Of a DNA stretch of 64,000 nt, positions 17,455-64,000 are shown one piece after another. The translations under genes were made by a program, and so were the position numbers. Position 1 is the first letter of the stretch. Every line of letters starts with the position of its first letter. A model generated the notes under the pieces. The model did no database searches, was not told the origin of the DNA, and worked only from the letters and a program-made list of their open reading frames with translations. Source of the DNA: Kondoa malvinella (taxonomy: Eukaryota; Basidiomycota; Agaricostilbomycetes; Agaricostilbales; Kondoaceae); contig BCIM01000014.1 in NCBI GenBank assembly GCA_039545315.1, forward strand, positions 409,841-473,840, written 5' to 3'.

Positions 17455-18485
17455 ATTTGCAAGGCGAGAAAAAGGATGTTAACGTGCTGGACAAACAGTT
17501 AGAAGATATGCTGGGCGATATTTGTCGGAGGAGATTCGACTACGAGCTGGTCTGATAAGAGCTCTGGTATGTTCCAAGTCCAAGCGAGCAGGCTATAGAT
17601 GCGCTGTATAGAAGCCGAGATCAAGCAAAGTGACGGTTCCTCGTCAACAGAGGGTCCATGCCAAACGTCGAGTGTACATGTTGTGCTGGCCTTCCGTTCT
17701 CCCCGCGCTGTCTGTCCTTGCTGTGTGGTAGCCTATCGTATGCCGTCTCTTGCAACTTGTGATTCGCTGCACTCTGTCCTTGTTTTCGTCTCAAAATCTC
17801 TTGTCACGCACTTTAAGCTTTGCTCAGATTATCGCCTGCCAACGTGAAGCAAAGGCGAATGAGCTTGTCATCTTCACTGCGCTATCAAGAACACTGTGCT
17901 TCCTCAGCGGTCATCTCATCGTTCGAATACGAAGGAAGAAATCCAATCATGCGCACTCGGTGGAGCAACTTGTGACCGCTCTGCAAGCGCGGGTAAGATT
18001 TCTGACAGCCTCAAGCTGCTTCGAAGGGCCCTCGCTGCTTCTCAGAGACTGGCACCGCTCGTATGCTATTATGTCGCCGAACATTGGGCTTTCCGCAAAA
18101 TTATCGCTCGAAGCACGGAGGACTTTCAGATATACACGAAACAACCTGCATGCTGCTCTCGTATACGTGGCTCTCCGTGTGACAAGCCAGCCGATTAAAA
18201 CCATGCAAATCCATCTTGTTTATCGGTCGAGCGTTCGACCAAAGTCCGCTTCAAGCCAAATCCAATGCGCGCAAATATTACCCCTCGTTCTACATGCTCT
18301 CTACAACCTGTAGAAGGGTTCTGTTCGACTCGGAGATTTTTCTGCTTGCTTTTCATCGGTTTCGCAAACCTGCCTTGTCTCCCGCGGCCTTGTCAGAGGC
18401 CGAAGACTTCTGATTTGGCTCAGGGCTGTCCGCGTCGCTTTGAATTCTATAACATTGCTTTCGAAAACCTACAATAAATTTTCAC
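17455..18485. other. About 1 kb without a recognised gene
   Basis: Open frames of up to 187 codons occur on the plus strand, but they have no family motif, no consistent splice signals and a composition unlike neighbouring exons. No tRNA B-box or rRNA-like stretch is visible. It ends at the U6 promoter. Confidence 0.4.
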
Positions 18486-18488
18486 AAG

Positions 18489-18497
18489 GTATATAGT
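18489..18497 (+). promoter_or_regulatory. TATA element of the U6 gene
   Basis: GTATATAG lies about 25-30 bp upstream of the inferred U6 start, the position expected for an RNA polymerase III TATA box. A possible downstream B-box relative (TAGTCGAATCTG, about 18,677) resembles GWTCRANNC only loosely. Confidence 0.6.
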
Positions 18498-18521
18498 TGG
18501 GCAAAACAGCCTTTTTCCTTC

Positions 18522-18544
18522 GTACTCCTCGGAGTTACACACAA

Positions 18545-18576
<32 letters not shown>

Positions 18577-18640
18577 GGCCCCTGCACAAGGATGACACGC
18601 ATGATCAGAGTGGATTACCTTCGGGTAACAATTTTTTTTT
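18522..18640 (+). ncRNA. U6: U6 spliceosomal snRNA
   Basis: The core is unmistakable: AAATTGGAACGATACAGAGA (with the ACAGAGA box that pairs with the 5' splice site), then AGATTAGCATGGCCCCTGC (AGC triad, U4 pairing) and AAGGATGACACGCA. A short 5' stem-loop (GTACTC / GAGTTAC) precedes it. After the conserved core comes a UUCG-capped hairpin (ATTACC-TTCG-GGTAAC) and a T-run at 18632-18640, a pol III terminator. No intron interrupts the conserved core. U6 forms the catalytic centre of the spliceosome. The exact 5' end is inferred from the stem and TATA spacing. Confidence 0.95.
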
Positions 18641-19499
18641 CCTTTTTTTTTTTTCGCTAGAGATGCAGACTACGAATAGTCGAATCTGCTAAAAGGGCTC
18701 AAGGCAGTCGAACCAGCGAAAAGGGACAGCAGAAGACCCTTCCTCGTAGCCGACCAACTTGCAGTCGACCAACGTCGACAACATATACCTGAGGCTCAGT
18801 TCGAGTGTGATACCCTGCTGCTTACCTGCGCCTTGCTTTATATCCTCTACCTCTGAGATACCTCGCATGGCCGCTGTAGGTCTCTCGTAAGTTTGCGATA
18901 TCATACGACTTCGCCTCAGGCCTGACAGACAATTCTTTACAGTCAGGCTACAGGCAATTACGACCAGCTTCAGCGCAGAACAACAACAGACACGCACACA
19001 GCCAACACAGCCAACACGGACGAGAACGCAAATAAGAATAACAGGCGAGATGTTGAAAGAGACGAGAGGATGGCAAGATATTACATTGAGGACCAGTCAA
19101 ATGACCTTCTACGCTGCCTTCAAGAATTGCTCGACGCGACTTCTTTTCTTCTCTATACGCACTGCTCACTCTTCAGAGGACTTTGCTATCCTGCTCCCCA
19201 TGGGACTGTTTCGGTGTCCCTTTTCGAGCATTGCTCTTGGTATTGCCCTGTTTGTCGGTCGGATTCGTCGTTGACATCAAAGCTTCGTTCTGCTCGACGA
19301 AGTGGCTTCTTTTTGGCTGACCCTACTCTGACTCGTGCCAGCTTGCATACGCCTGCGGCAGCTTTCTCTACTGCTCCTGAAGCGCTTCGTGAGTCCTGGC
19401 ACGTTGCGTCTGCAAGAAATAGCTGATCTCGAGTCAGTGCGGACGTGTGACCTCCCAGTCCCTCCGGTTCCCTAGCTTGTATCGCTCTAGCCATCGCTA
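18641..19499. other. Region downstream of U6 with no clear gene
   Basis: Several short open frames overlap in different frames. One could hold the 5' exon of the following gene: a GTGAGT donor near 19,390 and a TAGCTGATC branch point near 19,420 are present. No frame joins cleanly, so I call nothing here. Confidence 0.35.
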
Positions 19500-20423
19500 T
19501 TTGCACCCAGCACTCCTACGCTCTACCTTTACTTTGTGCGGATGGACAAGCCGATGTCCTCAACGTATGTCTACACCCTCTGCGCGCCTGGATGGTCTGA
19601 TCGTATGCTAGGAATCTACTCGTACCAAAGATGACATTCTGAACGCATCGGCAAGAGTTCAAGTTCGCGACCTCGCTTGTGCTACTGTCAATGCTCGGAT
19701 CGCTGGCGGAGATGCTCCTCTCGCTTCAACAAGCGCTAGAGTCATCATTGGTAATGATGATGTGAGCTATGTCCTGTACCAACCATTTACCTGTATTGAC
19801 TTCTTTCTTTAGCAACAACGCGCTCAGGCCGAAACTCAAGATGCTGAGCGGACCTTCAGTACTGCAGACAAAATCAAATTTGTCAGACCTCCTCAACAAC
19901 AAGGAGGTGAGCAATCACGACTCAACAACTCTGGACCAGTCCAAGATGAGGTCTTTGATCCGGAGAGCAACAGAAAGATTGGCGTGACCAATAATTCTGG
20001 ATCGCGCAAAGACAAGGTCTCCAATCCTAACAGCAATAGGAAGATTGGCGTGGCTACTCAACCTGAGCCTGAAGATGTTGTTGACGTCAATTTGGGCGAC
20101 AAGAAGGATATCTGGAATCTAGTCAAGGCGGATCCTATTGCTCGCGTTGGTGTGAGCTCTCTTCCTCTTCTTACATGTCCGCCAGCTGACCATCATTGCA
20201 GCTTCCTACCAACGATGGAAACAGCGAGTCTGCTCGAACTCAGGCCAACATTGAGAAGATCAACAACAACGCCCAGCAGTCTTCTGATAAACCTAAACAA
20301 GATTCAGAAAAAGCTTGCCGTCCTAATGCCCACCAGGCTAAACTCGCTCTGCCTCCCAAACAAAACAACCAGCAACAAGGGGATCCTCAATCTGCTGGTA
20401 CCGCTGGTCTTTGCTTGATTTGA
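19500..20423 (+). CDS. Uncharacterised Asn/Gln-rich protein, 5' end unresolved
   Basis: Four exons are supported: one ending at 19564, then 19612-19761, 19813-20151 and 20202-20423. All three introns are phase 0 with good donors and CTGAY branch points, and all complete exons are multiples of three. The first supported exon encodes a hydrophobic stretch (CIALAIAIC) that could be a signal peptide core followed by LPLLCADGQ. The rest is hydrophilic and Asn/Gln/Asp-rich with an internal repeat ending in SNRKIGV twice. No start codon is in frame in the first exon, so a further 5' exon is missing. No known domain; secretion is only a suggestion. Confidence 0.45.
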
Positions 20424-21334
20424 ATTTGGGTCAACCGAAGGATAGTGGCAATCTGTTTGATTTACCTGGTTTGGCTGCACGCCTGCTGGCGACATTCGCT
20501 TCCGCCCGTCACTACCCACAACATGGCAGACGACAGCACTGACCCCATCCTGAATCAAATTCGCCGTGTTCAGCTGTTCAACAGATCAAGCGATCGAGTA
20601 AAGGTCATCTTCCAGCGAATGCGATTCTTCAGAGTTTAGATTCGCAGACTTTGGACTTGTAGATTGCCTGCTAGACATGATCGTAAAATTGGACATGACC
20701 AAACAGAGTGCTCAGTCTCTGGTAGACACTGGCGACAGGCTAAGCAGGCTAGGCGCTATGAAGCACGATGTTGAGAGTACTAAAGGCCCTGTGACATGTC
20801 ACATTTCACAGGCGACGAGAAATTGTGGCGTCAGTTTCCTGTCGACCGACTCAAGTATTCAATCTCACGCCTTGTCCCATCGCTACTTGTCAAACTGCGC
20901 AGCAGCTCAAGATTCAATCGGAAGGAGATATCATCATGAATTCACAATTGCCATACAATGATGGTCAGCTCGATGAAAGGCCCAATACCGACGTGACTCT
21001 TCGAATTTGGGAAGCCTCTGCAAGGTCGCCAAGTAGTACTTTGCGATCAATGTGCGCATGACACGCTCGCCAGCTTCTTTGAATTAATTACGGAATGGGA
21101 ACGCATTCCCTTTCCCAAGTCACTTGGATGCGATGCGCCCTCCGCCCTCCACTCCCTCCGCCCTCAACTCTTGCGCTTGCAGTCTGACGGATCGGCGACA
21201 GCTCTGATACCTCTCTATGACACCTCTGTCTCCTTTCGAAGCCTGAAGCTCCCTCGTTCAAGCTTGTGTGTATCGCTCCGTCAGGCTACCTCCCTCCCTC
21301 AGCTGTTGCCTCTGATCCAGGCTCGCCTTCCGCC
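20424..21334. other. Spacer upstream of the protease-recombinase gene
   Basis: Just after the previous stop, a different frame continues [14 protein letters not shown], which mirrors VNLGDKKDIWNL of the last gene and suggests a frameshifted relic. At 21092-21109 there is a GGAATG / CATTCC dyad, and pyrimidine-rich CCCTCC units follow at 21136-21165. Nothing else recognised. Confidence 0.4.
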
Positions 21335-24300
21335 ATGTATTCAGTCCTCATAGATGCGACCAACAGTCCTAGGAGGCAAAGGCAGAAGCGCAGCGTTGAT
21401 AGCACGGATGCTCAAAGCCAGGTCGGTTAGCTTACCAATTATCTTAGCCTTGTTGAGACAGTCTGTAGCCCTCCAAAAGGCAAAGACTGGCTAGAGATCA
21501 CTCTCAAACACCCATCGCTCAAGCTCCATCGTCTCCGCATTCGCCCACCAGGCCTGGATCGCGACCACAGAGAGAAGCAGTCGATCTCGATTTCGCTCAT
21601 AGGCCCAGAGAATGTACAAATGCCGGCAATACGTGCTATATCGCGTCACTACTGCAGATGCTTATCCAAAATCCGGTAATCCGAGCGAAAATCAAGTCTT
21701 CCGTTGTCGCTCCTGGAACTCGTGTGGAAAGAAGACTCGTCGCATCCTTGGCATCCTTTATGGACGGCATATCTTCCTTTAGAGACACTGTGCTATGTAT
21801 CAAAGGTATGACAACCAAGCAAGTTCTGATGTGCCGTTAATGAAAGTGGAAGCTAGCTTCCTCAGGAACGTTCAACAACGACAGACAGCAGGATGCCGGC
21901 GAACTCTTCTTTGAAATCTTTGCCCGGCACCTCCAATCAGTAGCAAGTGTATCAACCTTCACCTTGGCAAGATCTAGGCAGTGCACAGCATGTGGCCTCC
22001 AGCGCGAAGGACGTGTATTTCCAGAGCAAATGCTCGACGTTCCGACCAATGGCGAAGGTGTTTTTGCCGGCATCATCGGAGCAGCGTTGGCTTCTACCGT
22101 CACAGATGACACTCCATGTTACAAGTAAGTGATTGCTTGTTGGATCGGCGACTATCTCTCATATCAGGTTGTATAGCCGGCCGGCATGCCAGAGCATGTC
22201 ATTGCGCGAAGAATGCACAATCCCGCAGTCTGGTCCTATCATTTTTCTTGACCTCAAGCGCTTCATTTACACCCTGCGAAACGGCGAGAATGTTGCCGCA
22301 AAGATCTGCGCACCCTTCCACGTAGAAGAGGAGATCATAGTCAATGAGGTAAGCTTGCTCTCTCACGAAGACCAGCCTGTATGGCTGACTGTCCGGTGAA
22401 GAAACGGTATTGTCTGTGTTCTGCTGTGATCCACTTGGGTCCAAGTATGCAAGCTGGGCATTACGTAGCTCTTGTATGGGACTTTGGGCAGGAAGTGGTT
22501 TGGCGCTGCGATGATGCTGTCATTCTGGCTCAGAACACTTGGCAAGGAATCCAGGATGCCTATTTGCTGTGCTACATGGAAGGATCGGTATGTTTCCTCG
22601 ATTGATGGAGTTCACTGTTGATTCCATTGCAACTAGGTGTTTGATCAATCAAGCAGATTGGCACGAGCGGCCACTGCACCACCTCCGACTGCCTCTACAT
22701 ATCCTTCTGTCCGAGACGCCGAACAAAACGTTTCACCTTCTCACACTCCCTTTCAAGTCTCAAATAAACGTCGCAATTTTCCGCTGATTCCGGATGGGAT
22801 TTCGAAGAAGATAGTCACAATCTCCACGTGGCTTGCGGAAGCTCTCCAGATTGATGTCGAACCAGTATCGTCTCTGGACGATACCCTCTCCAGCTTTATC
22901 CTACATCGCATGCGAATACCAGTAGAAGCTGACGTTGAAGAGCTTTACGCTCATTTACGCAAACAAATCGAAGTGACAAGCGTCTCTCTCAGAAGCAACG
23001 ACGAGAAGATCGCATTCACCCTGTCGCTACAAGATACTGTCTTCGCAACGAAAAGAACAGACCGTCATCGCGGCTCTCGCATACTTGGGTCTTCCGGAGT
23101 CTCTCTACCTGACGCTCAATCCGGAACACTTGTACTACTCGAGAAAAGCAGCGCTCGATCTGAAGTTCAGCTCCTTTTACCCAGTAAAGACGCGATAGCA
23201 AAATTAGCTGAATTCGCTAGAGCTACGAGCTGTCCACCGCAATACATGCGCGAGCTGTGCTTAAAAAATGTTCAAGAATTGAGCGAGAACTCTATCGAAT
23301 TGGGGGGCCTGCGATGGCCTGACATAATTAGGTGTGTTGCATCGGGATTGTGAGACGGGCATGGTTGATCTCTTTTATCAGACCACTTTTTGAATGCTCA
23401 AAAGCAAAGCTTGCACTGCCAAAGAAGGACATGCGATCCATTATAGAGCTACTCTTACAACCAACACTCTCTCAAGCCTCAAATCTTTACATTACTCGCC
23501 TCAGAAGCCCACTTCCAGAAGACGTCACCCTATTCCTCGAACCAGATTTCCGTGCGATCGTTGTCCATCAACCAATCCTTGGCAGACATCCTCATCTCTT
23601 CTCATACCAAGAGGTCAGCAAAACAGTGTTGTCCTCACTTTGCGAAAGATTGGCCGCCGACTATCAGCTAGAAAGTGAAGCACTCAGCCTTGGTAAATCT
23701 GCCTGCTTGCCCATCATCCGTGGAATCTTTCGCTCTGATGGACTGCTCAATCTTTCAATACTCGATGTTCAGATCGCGCCCTTGTTGCGTGCCGCCTTCT
23801 CTACGACTCGGGCCGAAGATCAAAGCGGTCTTTTCGATTTCAGCAGCATGCCAGCATTTGACCCATCGGCACAGAAGATTCCAGCTGTACGACTCTACGC
23901 GAGAACCTCAGATGAAGATCGTTCAACCAAGGCAGGCGAGAGCCTTGCTCGGCAGATTCTCGCTTCTGCTCTGCACCCTCCTTCCTGCATCCGTCAAGAT
24001 TTCGCCAATGTCGAGAACTTAGAGACCAGTCACGAACACGCATCAAGTATGCGCCACGCTTTAACGGACCGGCTTGCTTTCACCAAAATGGTCAGAGATC
24101 TACCCGCCGGCTCTGTGATCCTTTTCTCCAATATCGACAGGCTCACAAGACGTCTTTCAGATGTGCCCGTTGTCCAAAAAGCCATCACAGACAAGGGACT
24201 GAAACTATATAGTAGAGGATTCCTGGAAGCGGAGTTTGAAGCAATTAGGCAAGCAGAGAGTGAGGAGTCAGGAGAGGAAGAACCAGATTGGGGTAGATGG

Positions 24301-26021
24301 CTTGTTGAAGGGGAAGAAGCTGCGCCCGGGACCGAGACATGGGTCTTGATCAATACCAATTTGGATTTGGTCAAATTACATCTCAAGAATGCACTGGTGC
24401 TTTCCGAAGAACACGCTTTCTACACCGACTCTTGCCTGATGATGGACCGAATATTGCAACTCAAAGAAGAAGGCCAACGACGGTTCATCTGTCTTTTGGA
24501 AGCCATTCAGTCGTCTATCTTGCAATATCTTTACGCCAACAAGCTCCACAAGATTATTATTGTAGCTAGGACATCTCAAGATAGTCAAAATTCGATCAGG
24601 CGACAGCGGTGTTTTCTTAAGCTCTGGCTACCTCCGGGCTTTGCGGCCGAAGTCATCGAATTACCAGCTCAATCGGCAATTTCCAGCAATGTGGTACATC
24701 AAGCTTTAGACAAGGCTCGATGTGCATCCTCTTTGGTCTTGTTTACATCAGTGGACCGCCTTTGTCGAAGTACCGAATTTCTTGCTCAGCTTTTCACCAC
24801 AGCCAGGAACAGACAGCAGCATCTGATGGGATTCGTTTGGCAAGCTCGAGACTTTCAAGCTTGTCGCACACACGTGCTGAATTGCGGCCCACTCCTCGAG
24901 AGAGAGCTAAAAGCCAGTGCTGCATACTTCAACACGGCTCGGAGCCTTCCTTTGATTGCCCCTATTATCATAAATCAAGAGCACGGAAGAGCTATGCAAC
25001 GGCTGAGCAAAGAAAGGGCCGCTGTAGGAGGAAATTTTGCCAGTGCTTTGCAGAGCTCTAGCTTTCAAGGCAATCTGGACACGGTGATTCCTCAATTATT
25101 GCAGACCGGAAGATCATCCAGCATAGATAGGGACAAGACAGGTGAGCTCTTCGCGCCTGTCGGGGGAGCAATGTGCTGATTAACAACGCAGCGCTCCTCT
25201 GGCAAGACAACTTCAAGTCTAAATTCCCTCTTGTCAAAGACGTCAAAAGCTGTTGGTTTTGGGGCAACTCGGCCTTCGATTGCAAGTGCAGCGTCGAAAC
25301 GCATGATCTAGAGGGCTGCTTTTGCCACTGCGAGATCTGCACCCTCGCCCGAGAACGAAGTTGCCCATCCCATCGCAACGAGGGAAAATGTCCAGTGCTC
25401 TGTCCTTGTCGCTGCAAGAATCACCACACGGGAGCCAACACAAACAATCAGACAGATCAGTCTCCCTCTGGGCATAGCGAGACCGTATCAAGCCAGTCAG
25501 ACGAAGAGCAAGTCATTGAAAGCAAACGGAAGCAAAGGCAGACAAAGACGAAGAGGACAGCACGTAAGTCTGTATACATATTGCCTTCGTCGAGATATTG
25601 ACTTTGTGGTATAGCTGCGCAAGTCAAGAAGACCGTAGCTGAACCAACAAAGGAGACTGTCACCAAGTCAGCAAAGGCGAATGTCGCTAAATCAGCAGTC
25701 GAAAAGAACGCCAAGGAAGTTGAGCTCAAAAAGTGTTCTTGCAAGAAGACCTTTACCGGCGCAGGCTCTCTGTGTGGTACCTGCTACCGCAAGAACGCTG
25801 CAAAACAGAAAACCGGAACAGACGGCAAGAAAAGATGCGAAGCACGGGCCTGCAGTAAAGTCTGCTCGAACAAGAAAGCAAAATACTGCTCAGTCCAATG
25901 CTTGACTACCGAGATGGGCAGAGCAGGCAAAGAAGTCCCGACCTGTAAGGTGACTGGCTGCGAGAAGGTTGTTATGCCTGGTTTGGGAAGGGCATGTGAG
26001 ACACATGTTGTGCGCAAATAG
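21335..26021 (+). CDS. USP deubiquitinase fused to two serine-recombinase-like domains and Cys-rich tails
   Basis: Nine exons (21335-21421, 21469-21805, 21866-22124, 22168-22348, 22402-22587, 22637-23331, 23382-25141, 25192-25563, 25615-26021) total 4284 nt, 1427 residues, every junction in phase. Residues ~80-350 are a ubiquitin-specific protease: Cys box NAGNTCYIASLLQ (Cys85), CTACG finger, IIFLDLKRF, His box AGHYVALVWDF (His308). Further on are two resolvase-like units. The first has LYARTS (Arg756, Ser758) and DRLTRR (Asp834, Arg835, Arg838). The second has VARTSQDSQ (Arg978, Ser980) and DRLCRS (Asp1040, Arg1041, Arg1044). These match R-x-S and D-R-x-x-R of serine recombinases. The end holds a Cys/His cluster (~1185-1245) and another (~1330-1415), probably zinc-binding, parted by Lys-rich linker. 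Gene structure and USP call are firm; recombinase assignment is motif-based inference. A mobile element or a domesticated one is plausible. Confidence 0.8.
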
Positions 26022-27259: not shown

Positions 27260-28220
27260 GTCATCTCACCCGATGTGTAAGCGCGATTGCCGACGGCGTT
27301 CAAACTGAAGAAAGCTGTGCTCACGCTGCAACCTGTCCCAGTGTCGACCTTACGCTGTCTTCCGACCCGTTCGATGCCGTAGAAAAGAAGCGCAAGATGA
27401 TGACCAGAACAGGCGACAGCACAGAATGCGTGCAAGAGCCGGCCAAGAGAGTCAAGTCAAGCGTTTTATCAATAGGCAGTCCACAGTCGAAACGAAGATT
27501 GTCGCGAGGCGATGAGATGAGCAGCAGACAGAAGGTACGAAGGGCTAGCAATGGTAATAACAGAGGGAAGAACAGAGAAGGGGAACAGCTGAGCTGTGAG
27601 TACCATTTAGAAAGTATCAATGACAAGCTGATATAGCATACAGCTCCCGTAAGAATCCATGCATCTTCGCCTCGCAGACCAACTCGTATCCCATCGAGTC
27701 GCGCTTTCAACCATATCGACCAAAGCGAATCAAGCAGCCAACCCGAACGTTTCCCGGAGAATGCGTTCAAGGACCATCAGCAGACAGACGGCCACGTCAA
27801 TAAGGCTTGTATCCTCTAGCCCTATCGAATGCCCAAACACCGGGAATACCTGCTATATGGCTGCGGCATTGCAAGTACTGGTCAATAATCCCGTCATCCG
27901 GGCATCTGTCTCTGCTCCGGGCGCTTCAACTCTGTCCGACACCGAGACGAATTTGCATTGCTTCAAATCCAAAAAACATGCACGACATGTGGTTTTTCTG
28001 CAAGTGACGAAGACTGCGAACAGTAAGGTGGATTGAGTAGGATGGGTACAGGGGTTCGTTGTCATTTAGTCCGCATACACATCTTGCAAGAAACAATTAG
28101 GCCCCACTGCGCAGCTCTCCTTGCAGCGTACAAGCCAACCATGCTCCTCACGCATGGCGAGGGAGATTGCTCCACAGTTGCACCTTCAATCACTTGTTAC
28201 GTGCCGAAAACGAAGTGAAA
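27260..28220 (+). pseudogene. Degraded paralogue of the USP part
   Basis: A basic N-terminal region (EPAKRVKSS, SKRRLSRGDEMSSRQK) is followed by a good intron (GTGAGT donor at 27598, AAGCTGATATAG acceptor). About 200 bases on comes the Cys box ECPNTGNTCYMAAALQ and VNNPVIRASVSAPG, matching the same segment of the intact gene at 21,335 almost position by position. The frame before the Cys box does not connect to it without a frameshift. After it the alignment jumps from the helix following the Cys box straight to a finger-like KTCTTCG segment, then to GEG and ITCY fragments. So internal parts are deleted, and no His box or recombinase part is found. It is a broken relative, joined to the left inverted repeat. 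Confidence 0.65.
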
Positions 28221-28775
28221 TTTTCAGCTCTCTTTATCTATGGCCAATGCAGTATGGTCGATCTCGCTCGTACAAGAAGGCCTGCTGCTGTGCGAGCCTC
28301 GCACTAACAGTCTCCTGCCTTGGCCTTGTTTCCGATACCTTAGCAGCATCAGACTTGGTGCTTCATCTATCTGTCTGGCCAGCGAATCAAGGCCAAGGCT
28401 ACAGCTTCCCGATGTGTGTGTCTCTCTCTCTCTCTCTCTCTGCTTCCTACAAGCTGCTAAAGCCTGCTGAGAAGATCACGGTTACGGCTGTTACAGTACC
28501 ATCAAGTCGAAGAAAAGTCGCCGATCAGAGGATTTGTTGTGTTGTCGAGCAGCACTCGGTTTGTTCCTTCAAGCTGCAAGTGGGTACGCTGTGCTGTCTC
28601 AGCTCGATGCTACGATGCATCTGCTTTCTCTTGTCAGAGAGTACTACCCACTCATCGGCAATGTGTCTGTTGCTCCCTCTCGATCGCGTAGGAGGTTGCT
28701 GGAGAGAAGGAATGCAGCACAGGTGGAGCAACGACAGCTAGATCAGGAGGAATGCAATATGACAGGCTACTGCTA
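28140..28775 (+). repeat. Left copy of ~640 bp inverted repeat
   Basis: Nearly identical, in reverse orientation, to 32930-33565. The shared stretch runs from CACGCATGGCGAGGGAGATT through a CT microsatellite (TGTGTGTCTCTCTCT) to GCTAGATCAGGAGGAAT. Differences are a few substitutions and the length of the CT run. Looser similarity extends left to about 27,965, with a ~95 bp segment missing from the right copy. It contains the tail of the degraded USP copy and an ORF-like end (LSQLDATMHLLSLVREYY) of unknown family. Confidence 0.85.
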
Positions 28776-62893: not shown

Positions 62894-64000
62894 CTACGCT
62901 CGCTTCTCCAACTGCATCTGCGAGAACTGTCCTGGGCCGAACTCGCGTGGGCCGAGAGCATTGTCCAGAACTTCCATGAGAGCCAATGTCTGCGAAGTCA
63001 AATCAGCAGAGCTCTCGCAGCCAGCACAAGGCATACCCTTTCCTCCTCCCAGGCAGAGCATACGACTTGTACACCAACAGGGAGACCAGCCATCTTCTTG
63101 GCATCGTAGATGCCCTTTGCTTGACTGTAGACAGCCTTGTGTAGAATCTTGGCACCTTTAGTCTGTTCCTTGCCCCATCGTCTGGTGAGAGTATCCTCGA
63201 TGGGGTCGACTTTCGTTACTGGCACGACACCGGCTGACGAGTCGACAAGATTCCAGAGGATAGTCTCGATAGCGAGGAAGGCGAGCTGTATAGAACTCAA
63301 TAAAGGCAAGCGATAGAGTGGTATGACGCACATTCCATCCAGAGCCAACAGGAATAGCAGGCACAGCTTGCACTGGCGTTATCATTCCATCTGTCCGCGA
63401 GAAAGACTGTCAGTGCTCAAGTCGCCGCGGGCTTCAAGTTCGCGAACCAAGGGCCAATTCGTCCCACAGTAACTCCTTGAGTCTTTTAGCATACGCATCC
63501 CTGCGATAATATCAGCTAAGTTCTTTCGACACTTGCCGGGGCTTACCTCTCAGCTTGAGCCTTCAACAATCCTTTCACCGGCTTGCGACCAGCTCGGATC
63601 AGGATACGAGCAGTAGTAGGATCGACCCATGACAATAATCTGGAAATGCCGCCTAGCAAAGTAGGGCCCAACCAGCCTTGGAGTCTCTGCAGGAAAAGGA
63701 ACCTACCGCCGAAATCAGCGGGATTCTATCGATGCCGTTCGTAGCTCACCCTTCGACTGGATCGACTTCAATATGCGACATCAACCCTTCGAACGCATCC
63801 GAGCTAGACATAGCGACGAAAAGCTCGAGTGATTTGGTAATATCAGGAATCTTGACTTCGACGCATTCGTGACCTGCTTCTTGCAGTGCTTTGATACTCA
63901 TGTCTACCGCTCTTTGGCATGCAGGAGAGACGGGTAGGACTAGTACCGTCAGTTTTTAGCTTGTCCCGACAATAGATGACCGACATTCATCTGTTCTATA
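62894..64000 (-). CDS. Amidase-signature enzyme, C-terminal part (right-truncated)
   Basis: The stop is at 62894 and the gene runs off the right edge on the minus strand, so the N-terminal part with the catalytic Ser-Ser-Lys triad is outside. The visible part fits the C-terminal half of amidase-signature enzymes of the fungal acetamidase/FAAH type: VSPACQRAVDMSIKALQEAG, HECVEVKIPDI, LAFLAIETILWNLVDSSAGV, VTKVDPIEDTLTRRWGKEQT, and AGLPVGVQVVCSAWEEERV. These enzymes hydrolyse amide bonds of small or fatty acyl amides. At least three introns are present. The end lies 49 bp from the start of the NYN gene on the same strand. Confidence 0.85.

Follow-up and report, generated by a model that had tools for sequence, protein, structure and literature searches.

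Serine recombinases have been described from a fungal genome before, in Saccharomyces kluyveri, which is now Lachancea. The S. kluyveri proteins, of prokaryotic origin and of the IS607 family, are present in six copies of 237-254 aa with an N-terminal DNA-binding domain, are reported to be under selection (ratio of nonsynonymous to synonymous substitution, dN/dS, 0.19), and include two without the catalytic Ser; neither a fusion nor a tandem arrangement is mentioned in the accessible text of that report (PMC2715888). IS607 transposases are described, in the part of the source available, as requiring the active Ser and as having a helix E wholly unlike that of other serine recombinases, and IS607 elements as being without terminal repeats and target duplication (PMC6188088). 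Some Fanzor2 elements of eukaryotes and giant viruses carry IS607-like serine recombinases, again in a eukaryotic setting; these are Fanzor-linked, and the accessible text mentions no protease (PMC3627910), whereas we found no match to the TnpB/Fanzor-type family for the locus that we report here. This locus is a predicted gene of the basidiomycete Kondoa malvinella that joins a ubiquitin-specific protease (USP) domain to two serine-recombinase cores, D1 and D2, the first firmly and the second probably assigned. It lies in a 64,000-nucleotide stretch of contig BCIM01000014.1 (positions 409,841 to 473,840, forward strand), called the window throughout, and positions given below are those of the window.

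DDE-type enzymes, to which transposase_11 also belongs, offer a second comparison. Ginger1 carries an OTU or Ulp1 domain, Mutator elements carry Ulp1, and a T. vaginalis protein has transposase_11 joined to peptidase C19, so that these systems, like our locus, set a DNA-moving enzyme beside a ubiquitin or SUMO protease, once of the same C19 class (PMC2836005, from the portion available). Ginger1 is described there as DDE-type and mostly multi-copy, with terminal repeats and a C-terminal protease (PMC2836005), whereas the K. malvinella gene has serine-recombinase cores, one copy and an N-terminal USP. With the small serine recombinases (gamma-delta, Tn3, Sin, Gin) and the large integrases (TP901-1, Bxb1) the gene shares a predicted core over positions 2-98 of PF00239 and the residues R8, S10, D67, R68 and R71; it differs from them in its USP fusion, in having two cores per chain, in being an intron-bearing nuclear gene, and in that helix E and a DNA-binding domain are not recognised. 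Resolvase comes up once, for another clan, in the available main text of a survey of fungal domain architectures that lists UCH among the promiscuous domains (PMC4102429); the accessible text of a review on giant eukaryotic transposons refers to serine recombinases a single time, in bacteria (PMC6431247). Among the open-access titles and beginnings of abstracts listed, we found no USP joined to a serine recombinase, and such a protein may be annotated elsewhere.

The spliced frame runs stop-free through nine exons of the forward strand to 1427 residues (Table 1), with all eight introns GT-AG and 43-60 nt long; the genome comprises 19.09 Mb in 20 contigs, the contig of the locus being C14 (here BCIM01000014.1). 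A sequence-only reading of the window had proposed this nine-exon, 1427-residue frame, and its exons do join in frame. The residues that it numbered (Cys85, His308, R756/S758, R978/S980, D834-R838 and D1040-R1044) are all correct in the translation, and the same is true of its two serine-recombinase signatures, with Ser-to-Asp spacings of 76 and 60 residues. From the translation we can thus support the reading frame, a USP domain with its predicted catalytic residues, D1 firmly and D2 probably, and a preferential retention of active-site residues in the cores.

The UCH family profile PF00443 is matched over positions 4-254 of 254, which is its full length. Cys85 sits in ECTNAGNTCY and His308 in AGHYVAL, and the two coincide with the Cys and His boxes of the solved USP46 and USP12; Asp325 or Asp326 is presumably the third catalytic residue. 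The presence of all the catalytic residues of a USP is supported, cleavage of ubiquitin itself being a prediction. The likeness to USP12 and USP46 lies in the two boxes and the order in which they come, whereas overall similarity is low (best E 1.8e-6 in the PDB set) and the protein described here adds C-terminal recombinase cores. When closeness was compared among eight fetched UCH loci (of 35 matches listed) and a neighbouring partial copy, it was this partial copy, at ~27.8 kb, that came closest to the USP domain of the gene (63% over 38 residues). The copy lies directly downstream (window 27836-27994), covers UCH profile positions 5-47 only and shows, by eye, the Cys box GNTCYMAAALQ.

For the recombinase cores, the all-Pfam search of the whole protein found two stretches of PF00239 (Resolvase) with a joint E of 4.7e-11, D1 scoring 29.1 bits against a cut-off of 23.3; the matches lie within profile positions 2-98 and end at 98 (D1) and 96 (D2) of 145, short of helix E. 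Exon 7 matched phrog_125, DNA invertase, in PHROGs (E 1.5e-10), and D1 and D2 were the only places listed when the organism's own genome was searched with PF00239. Local profiles were made from serine recombinases drawn from phages, plasmids, IMG/VR and GTDB genomes: profile 1 holds 38 of 252 recombinases (65% identity filter, one partial locus dropped) and profile 2 holds 63 of 275 sequences (72% filter, three of 278 loci dropped as partial). With profile 1, excised D1 scored 33.9 bits and D2 11.9, and 2000 shuffles of each reached at most 8.6 and 7.7; with profile 2 the scores were 29.3 and 13.9, against 9.4 for the best shuffle, and the excised cores outscored all 4000 shuffles in these profiles. 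Because of the Pfam and local-profile scores, seen against those of the shuffles, we regard D1 as a serine-recombinase catalytic core beyond reasonable doubt and D2 as probably one, and to this extent the serine-recombinase-like domains of the sequence-only reading stand. Shuffled exon 7 gave two units of R-x-S, 40-90 residues and D-R-x-x-R in 7 of 20000 cases and one or more units in 832 of 20000. The best matches of D1 in the profile-2 set are ~31-40% identical over 60-114 residues, the best local ones, at ~31% over 74-114 residues, being to L291, a contig of IMG/VR, and to several genomes of Psychrobacter; for D2 the best matches in the collected recombinase set were not significant. A scan of IMG/VR with exon 7 residues ~722-1122 returned no relative, and one record of the phage collection and two of the plasmids matched weakly, at genes for serine integrases or recombinases (E 0.02-0.6). 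The missing relatives in the phage, plasmid and IMG/VR collections say little, since few fungal sequences are to be expected there.

Active-site residues are named here by what we take to be their gamma-delta numbers (R8, S10, R45, D67, R68 and R71), and were read from an alignment, A7, of D1, D2 and 61 of the 63 relatives in profile 2 (L263 and L265 left out). R8, S10, D67, R68 and R71 are invariant in 61/61 relatives and kept in both cores; R45 is present in D1 as R812, with S1017 in its place in D2, and a Gln that is invariant in the relatives is found as Q984 in D2 and aligns with R762 in D1. D1 matches eight of nine family-invariant columns and D2 six of eight, against 17/102 and 21/109 in the rest of the well-filled columns (p 1.9e-5 and 1.9e-3 by Fisher's test), one of the eight matches in D1 being a Gly past the Pfam match that may be an alignment accident. 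Such preferential retention of invariant residues argues against plain decay; selection on the cores cannot be shown by one sequence from one genome.

Helix E builds the dimers of classical serine recombinases. Candidates for it, at residues ~905-930 and ~1075-1098, were placed by one MAFFT alignment and are unconfirmed. Helix-turn-helix, MerR, recombinase and zinc-ribbon families gave no Pfam match anywhere in the 1427 aa at E 1, and N-terminal of D1 Pfam matched nothing except UCH, although a short divergent domain could be missed there. In a tree of D1, D2 and the 61 relatives (89 columns) the two cores do not group as sisters, being separated by 5.1 substitutions per site, and BLASTP of D1 against D2 aligned only 15 residues; because the tree is without support values, we draw no conclusion on a D1/D2 duplication.

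A model of D2 made with alignment A7 has a mean predicted local distance difference test score (pLDDT) of 68, with block means of 73-85 over residues 965-1064 and values mostly below 50 past its residue 105, where helix E would be. In the Foldseek search of the PDB, ranks 1-3 were serine recombinases (3g13 twice and Sin 5c31; E 5e-4 to 4e-3, template-modelling score 0.45-0.51 by query length), ranks 6 and 8 were gamma-delta and rank 9 was Bxb1; in the viral library, nine of the best 14 rows were named and all nine were integrases, recombinases or resolvases. This fold check did not refute the assignment of D2, serine recombinases topping the Foldseek list, though the input alignment favours that fold. 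A model of residues 740-1110 made without an alignment had no Foldseek match at E 0.001; its hits were mostly generic alpha/beta folds, receptor or periplasmic-binding folds filling most of the top rows and the recombinase 3g13 standing at rank 13, and no recombinase was among the 50 VIA rows listed; this model may bear on the beta-alpha order in D2 and is otherwise uninformative.

We propose, giving it about an even chance, that this is a single-copy, domesticated host gene, encoding a USP with two captured serine-recombinase cores and a Cys-rich tail, which acts as a DNA-directed deubiquitinase. In this view a USP was joined by a recombinase gene whose ultimate source was a bacterium or a mobile element, and the fusion was then domesticated. 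The protein would probably be nuclear, its cores, possibly together with the tail, would grip DNA, and the USP would deubiquitinate chromatin or repair proteins on the bound DNA. Outside helix E, D1 has all of the family-invariant active-site residues but one, a Gln, and it may still nick DNA; D2, in which R45 is lost, more likely has a helper role. Classical recombination in a four-subunit synapse is unlikely, because helix E and a DNA-binding domain are not recognisable; a divergent helix E alone, on the other hand, does not exclude activity, since the IS607 helix E, as described in the available text, differs too (PMC6188088).

Several results weigh against this proposal. D2 alone has a PF00239 E of 7.6e-5, exactly at the 23.3-bit cut-off, and within the full protein profile 1 gives the stretch of D2 just 5.5 bits, under the best shuffle. 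Glycosyltransferases occupy ranks 4, 5 and 7 of the Foldseek PDB list for the D2 model, and the recombinase likeness of that model is consistency and not proof, because the recombinase alignment steers it. The alignment-free model has a mean pLDDT of 43, and its best VIA matches are receptor or periplasmic-binding folds. The fusion depends on a single predicted intron, intron 6. In a codon score trained on ten open reading frames (ORFs) of the window (range 0.032-0.142), exons 3 and 4 come close to a tie and exon 8 scores best outside the model frame, and D1 (0.004) and D2 (-0.000) fall below all ten training ORFs. Finally, the location, DNA binding and activity of the protein are all inferred.

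Among the alternatives, it would take a very improbable accident for the recombinase likeness to be due to chance: D2 alone is borderline and a generic alpha/beta fold draws many matches, but D1 reaches E 1.2e-6 over all Pfam and no shuffle came near its score. That the cores are dead, and kept as a scaffold or protein-binding surface for the USP, is a rather unlikely alternative that would fit the loss of R45 from D2, the unrecognised helix E, and the low identity of the D1 matches (those of D2 not reaching significance); it fits less well with the preferential keeping of family-invariant columns in both cores, which a dead fold does not need. At the other extreme, the protein could be a working serine nuclease or recombinase with its own deubiquitinase, D1 and D2 forming an intramolecular dimer in which Ser758 cuts covalently at a programmed site and the USP deubiquitinates chromatin or repair proteins at the break; a dimer-like D1-D2 pair is possible, and we consider the whole of this scheme doubtful. 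Two adjacent genes, wrongly merged in the model, would separate the USP from the cores: a USP gene would end after exon 6 and a recombinase-like gene would begin at ~23431. In keeping with this, the junction is one predicted 50-nt intron, unspliced exon 6 meets a stop 22 nt into it (the stop ending at 23353), and exon 7 has an in-frame ATG at 23431. However, just 77 nt separate stop and ATG, so that a promoter would fall in the first gene or in the gap, and intron 6, which preserves the frame, has a length and signals like those of the other seven introns, neither point being decisive. Of the six frames, the model frame has the top codon score in six of the nine exons, exon 7 included, whose 0.042 is inside the training range, and D1 and D2, despite their low values, are still top of the three forward frames. 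We judge two genes to be improbable, without dismissing them, and take the fused model, with USP and recombinase exons on one predicted mRNA, as the simplest.

The sequence-only reading had suggested a new or a domesticated transposase, and of this the domesticated half has fared better. A transposase of a mobile element, moving its own gene as the USP protects it or guides repair, would have in its favour that serine recombinases move DNA, that deubiquitinase-type domains are carried in eukaryotic transposons (PMC2836005, from the portion available), that a 125-nt gene fragment and the partial USP copy flank the gene, and that a direct 16-mer with one mismatch also flanks it. Four flank-repeat measures were equalled in 1, 4, 5 and 10 of 40 resamples; the 1/40 belongs to the direct 16-mer, on which we do not build because it is borderline before allowing for the four measures tried, and the other three stand against mobility. 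An inverted flank 17-mer considered as an element end was equalled in 4/40 and was set aside as unremarkable. Protein and DNA searches of the 19.1-Mb genome found one locus (copy counts being lower bounds). No match to PF07282 (TnpB/Fanzor-type) was found in the genome, four candidates having been scored in six frames with introns ignored, by a profile that responds to 6/14 controls, all of them prokaryote. Helix E and a DNA-binding domain, as said, are not recognised, and the wider surroundings hold housekeeping families. The window has 64 ORFs of 130 aa or more, and the 20 scanned, from around the gene, gave matches above cut-off to CLASP/TOG, Myb, CCDC90-like, Mago-binding, MUG190-like SMP, C2, ribosomal S7 and GDPD families, and matches under it to PPIP5K2 (27.1 vs 35) and CDT1 (18.1 vs 22.6); nine had no match at E 0.01, and the two ORFs immediately flanking the gene (17732-20415 and 28070-28738) matched no family. 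Since there is one copy, in wider surroundings that include housekeeping genes, with flank repeats not clearly exceeding chance, a transposase is unsupported and we consider it highly improbable. By the copy, neighbourhood and repeat tests the gene is resident, an old, decayed element being a possibility.

Other parts of the protein and window carry less information. The product of exon 6 has no Pfam match at E 1 and no relative in the scan of IMG/VR viral contigs. The tail encoded by exons 8-9 possibly binds metal, judging from its composition; DUF3807, at E 0.0026 and 18.5 bits against a cut-off of 25, was set aside there as compositional, and no significant relative of the tail was found in the organism's own genome (best other match E 0.15). 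No NCBIfam family reached significance (best E 0.11). At 25648-25697, within the Lys-rich part of exon 9, a 24-nt unit occurs about twice in tandem. On the 5′ side of the gene, the 125-nt fragment (20490-20614) shares 84% identity with a stretch of contig C1 (1723318-1723442) inside a gene whose translation looks like glycogen synthase. A U6 spliceosomal RNA gene lies at 18522-18637 (Rfam RF00026, 90 bits). Window position 64000 is the end of contig C14 (473840), and no telomere-like repeat was seen by eye in the last 600 bases.

Table 1. Features of the predicted USP-recombinase gene, in window coordinates
Feature	Position	Strand	Basis
Whole predicted gene	21335..26021	+	in-frame splice model, 9 exons, 1427 aa
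Exons 1-5	21335-21421, 21469-21805, 21866-22124, 22168-22348, 22402-22587	+	splice model
Exons 6-9	22637-23331, 23382-25141, 25192-25563, 25615-26021	+	splice model
USP/UCH domain, residues 79-346, exons 2-5	21616..22575	+	PF00443 E 3.2e-15; aligns with USP46/USP12
Predicted catalytic Cys85	21634..21636	+	NTCY box, aligned with USP46/12
Predicted catalytic His308	22459..22461	+	GHYVAL box, aligned with GHYITIV/GHYIAIV
Candidate third catalytic residue Asp326 (CDD)	22513..22515	+	D325-D326 aligned with USP46 FDD
Exon 6, ~residues 351-582, no recognised domain	22637..23331	+	Pfam
Intron 6, USP-recombinase junction, GTGTGT...CAG, 50 nt	23332..23381	+	predicted splice
Serine-recombinase core D1, residues 753-859	23893..24213	+	PF00239 E 1.2e-6 alone; local profiles
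D1 motif R756-T-S758 = R8/S10	23902..23910	+	R, S in 61/61 relatives
D1 R812 = R45	24070..24072	+	R in 61/61 relatives
D1 motif D834-R835-L-T-R838 = D67/R68/R71	24136..24150	+	D, R, R in 61/61 relatives
Probable serine-recombinase core D2, residues 974-1063	24556..24825	+	PF00239 23.3 bits at cut-off; model; Foldseek
D2 motif R978-T-S980	24568..24576	+	alignment A7
D2 motif D1040-R1041-L-C-R1044	24754..24768	+	alignment A7
Exons 8-9, Cys/His-rich and Lys-rich tail, ~residues 1170-1427	25192..26021	+	sequence

The eukaryotic serine recombinases of the literature are, in the accessible text of the sources, of IS607 type and mostly in mobile elements (PMC2715888, PMC3627910). If our proposal is true, a host gene with two serine-recombinase active sites beside a deubiquitinase would put to a natural test how serine recombinases are domesticated. 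It would also carry the recurring association of ubiquitin proteases with DNA-moving enzymes beyond the DDE transposases, to serine chemistry. Because the catalytic residues are retained, point mutation can test the gene directly. Should the intramolecular dimer, doubtful as we hold it, prove to be correct, the nuclear genome of K. malvinella would hold a serine recombinase that has been domesticated to serve the host.

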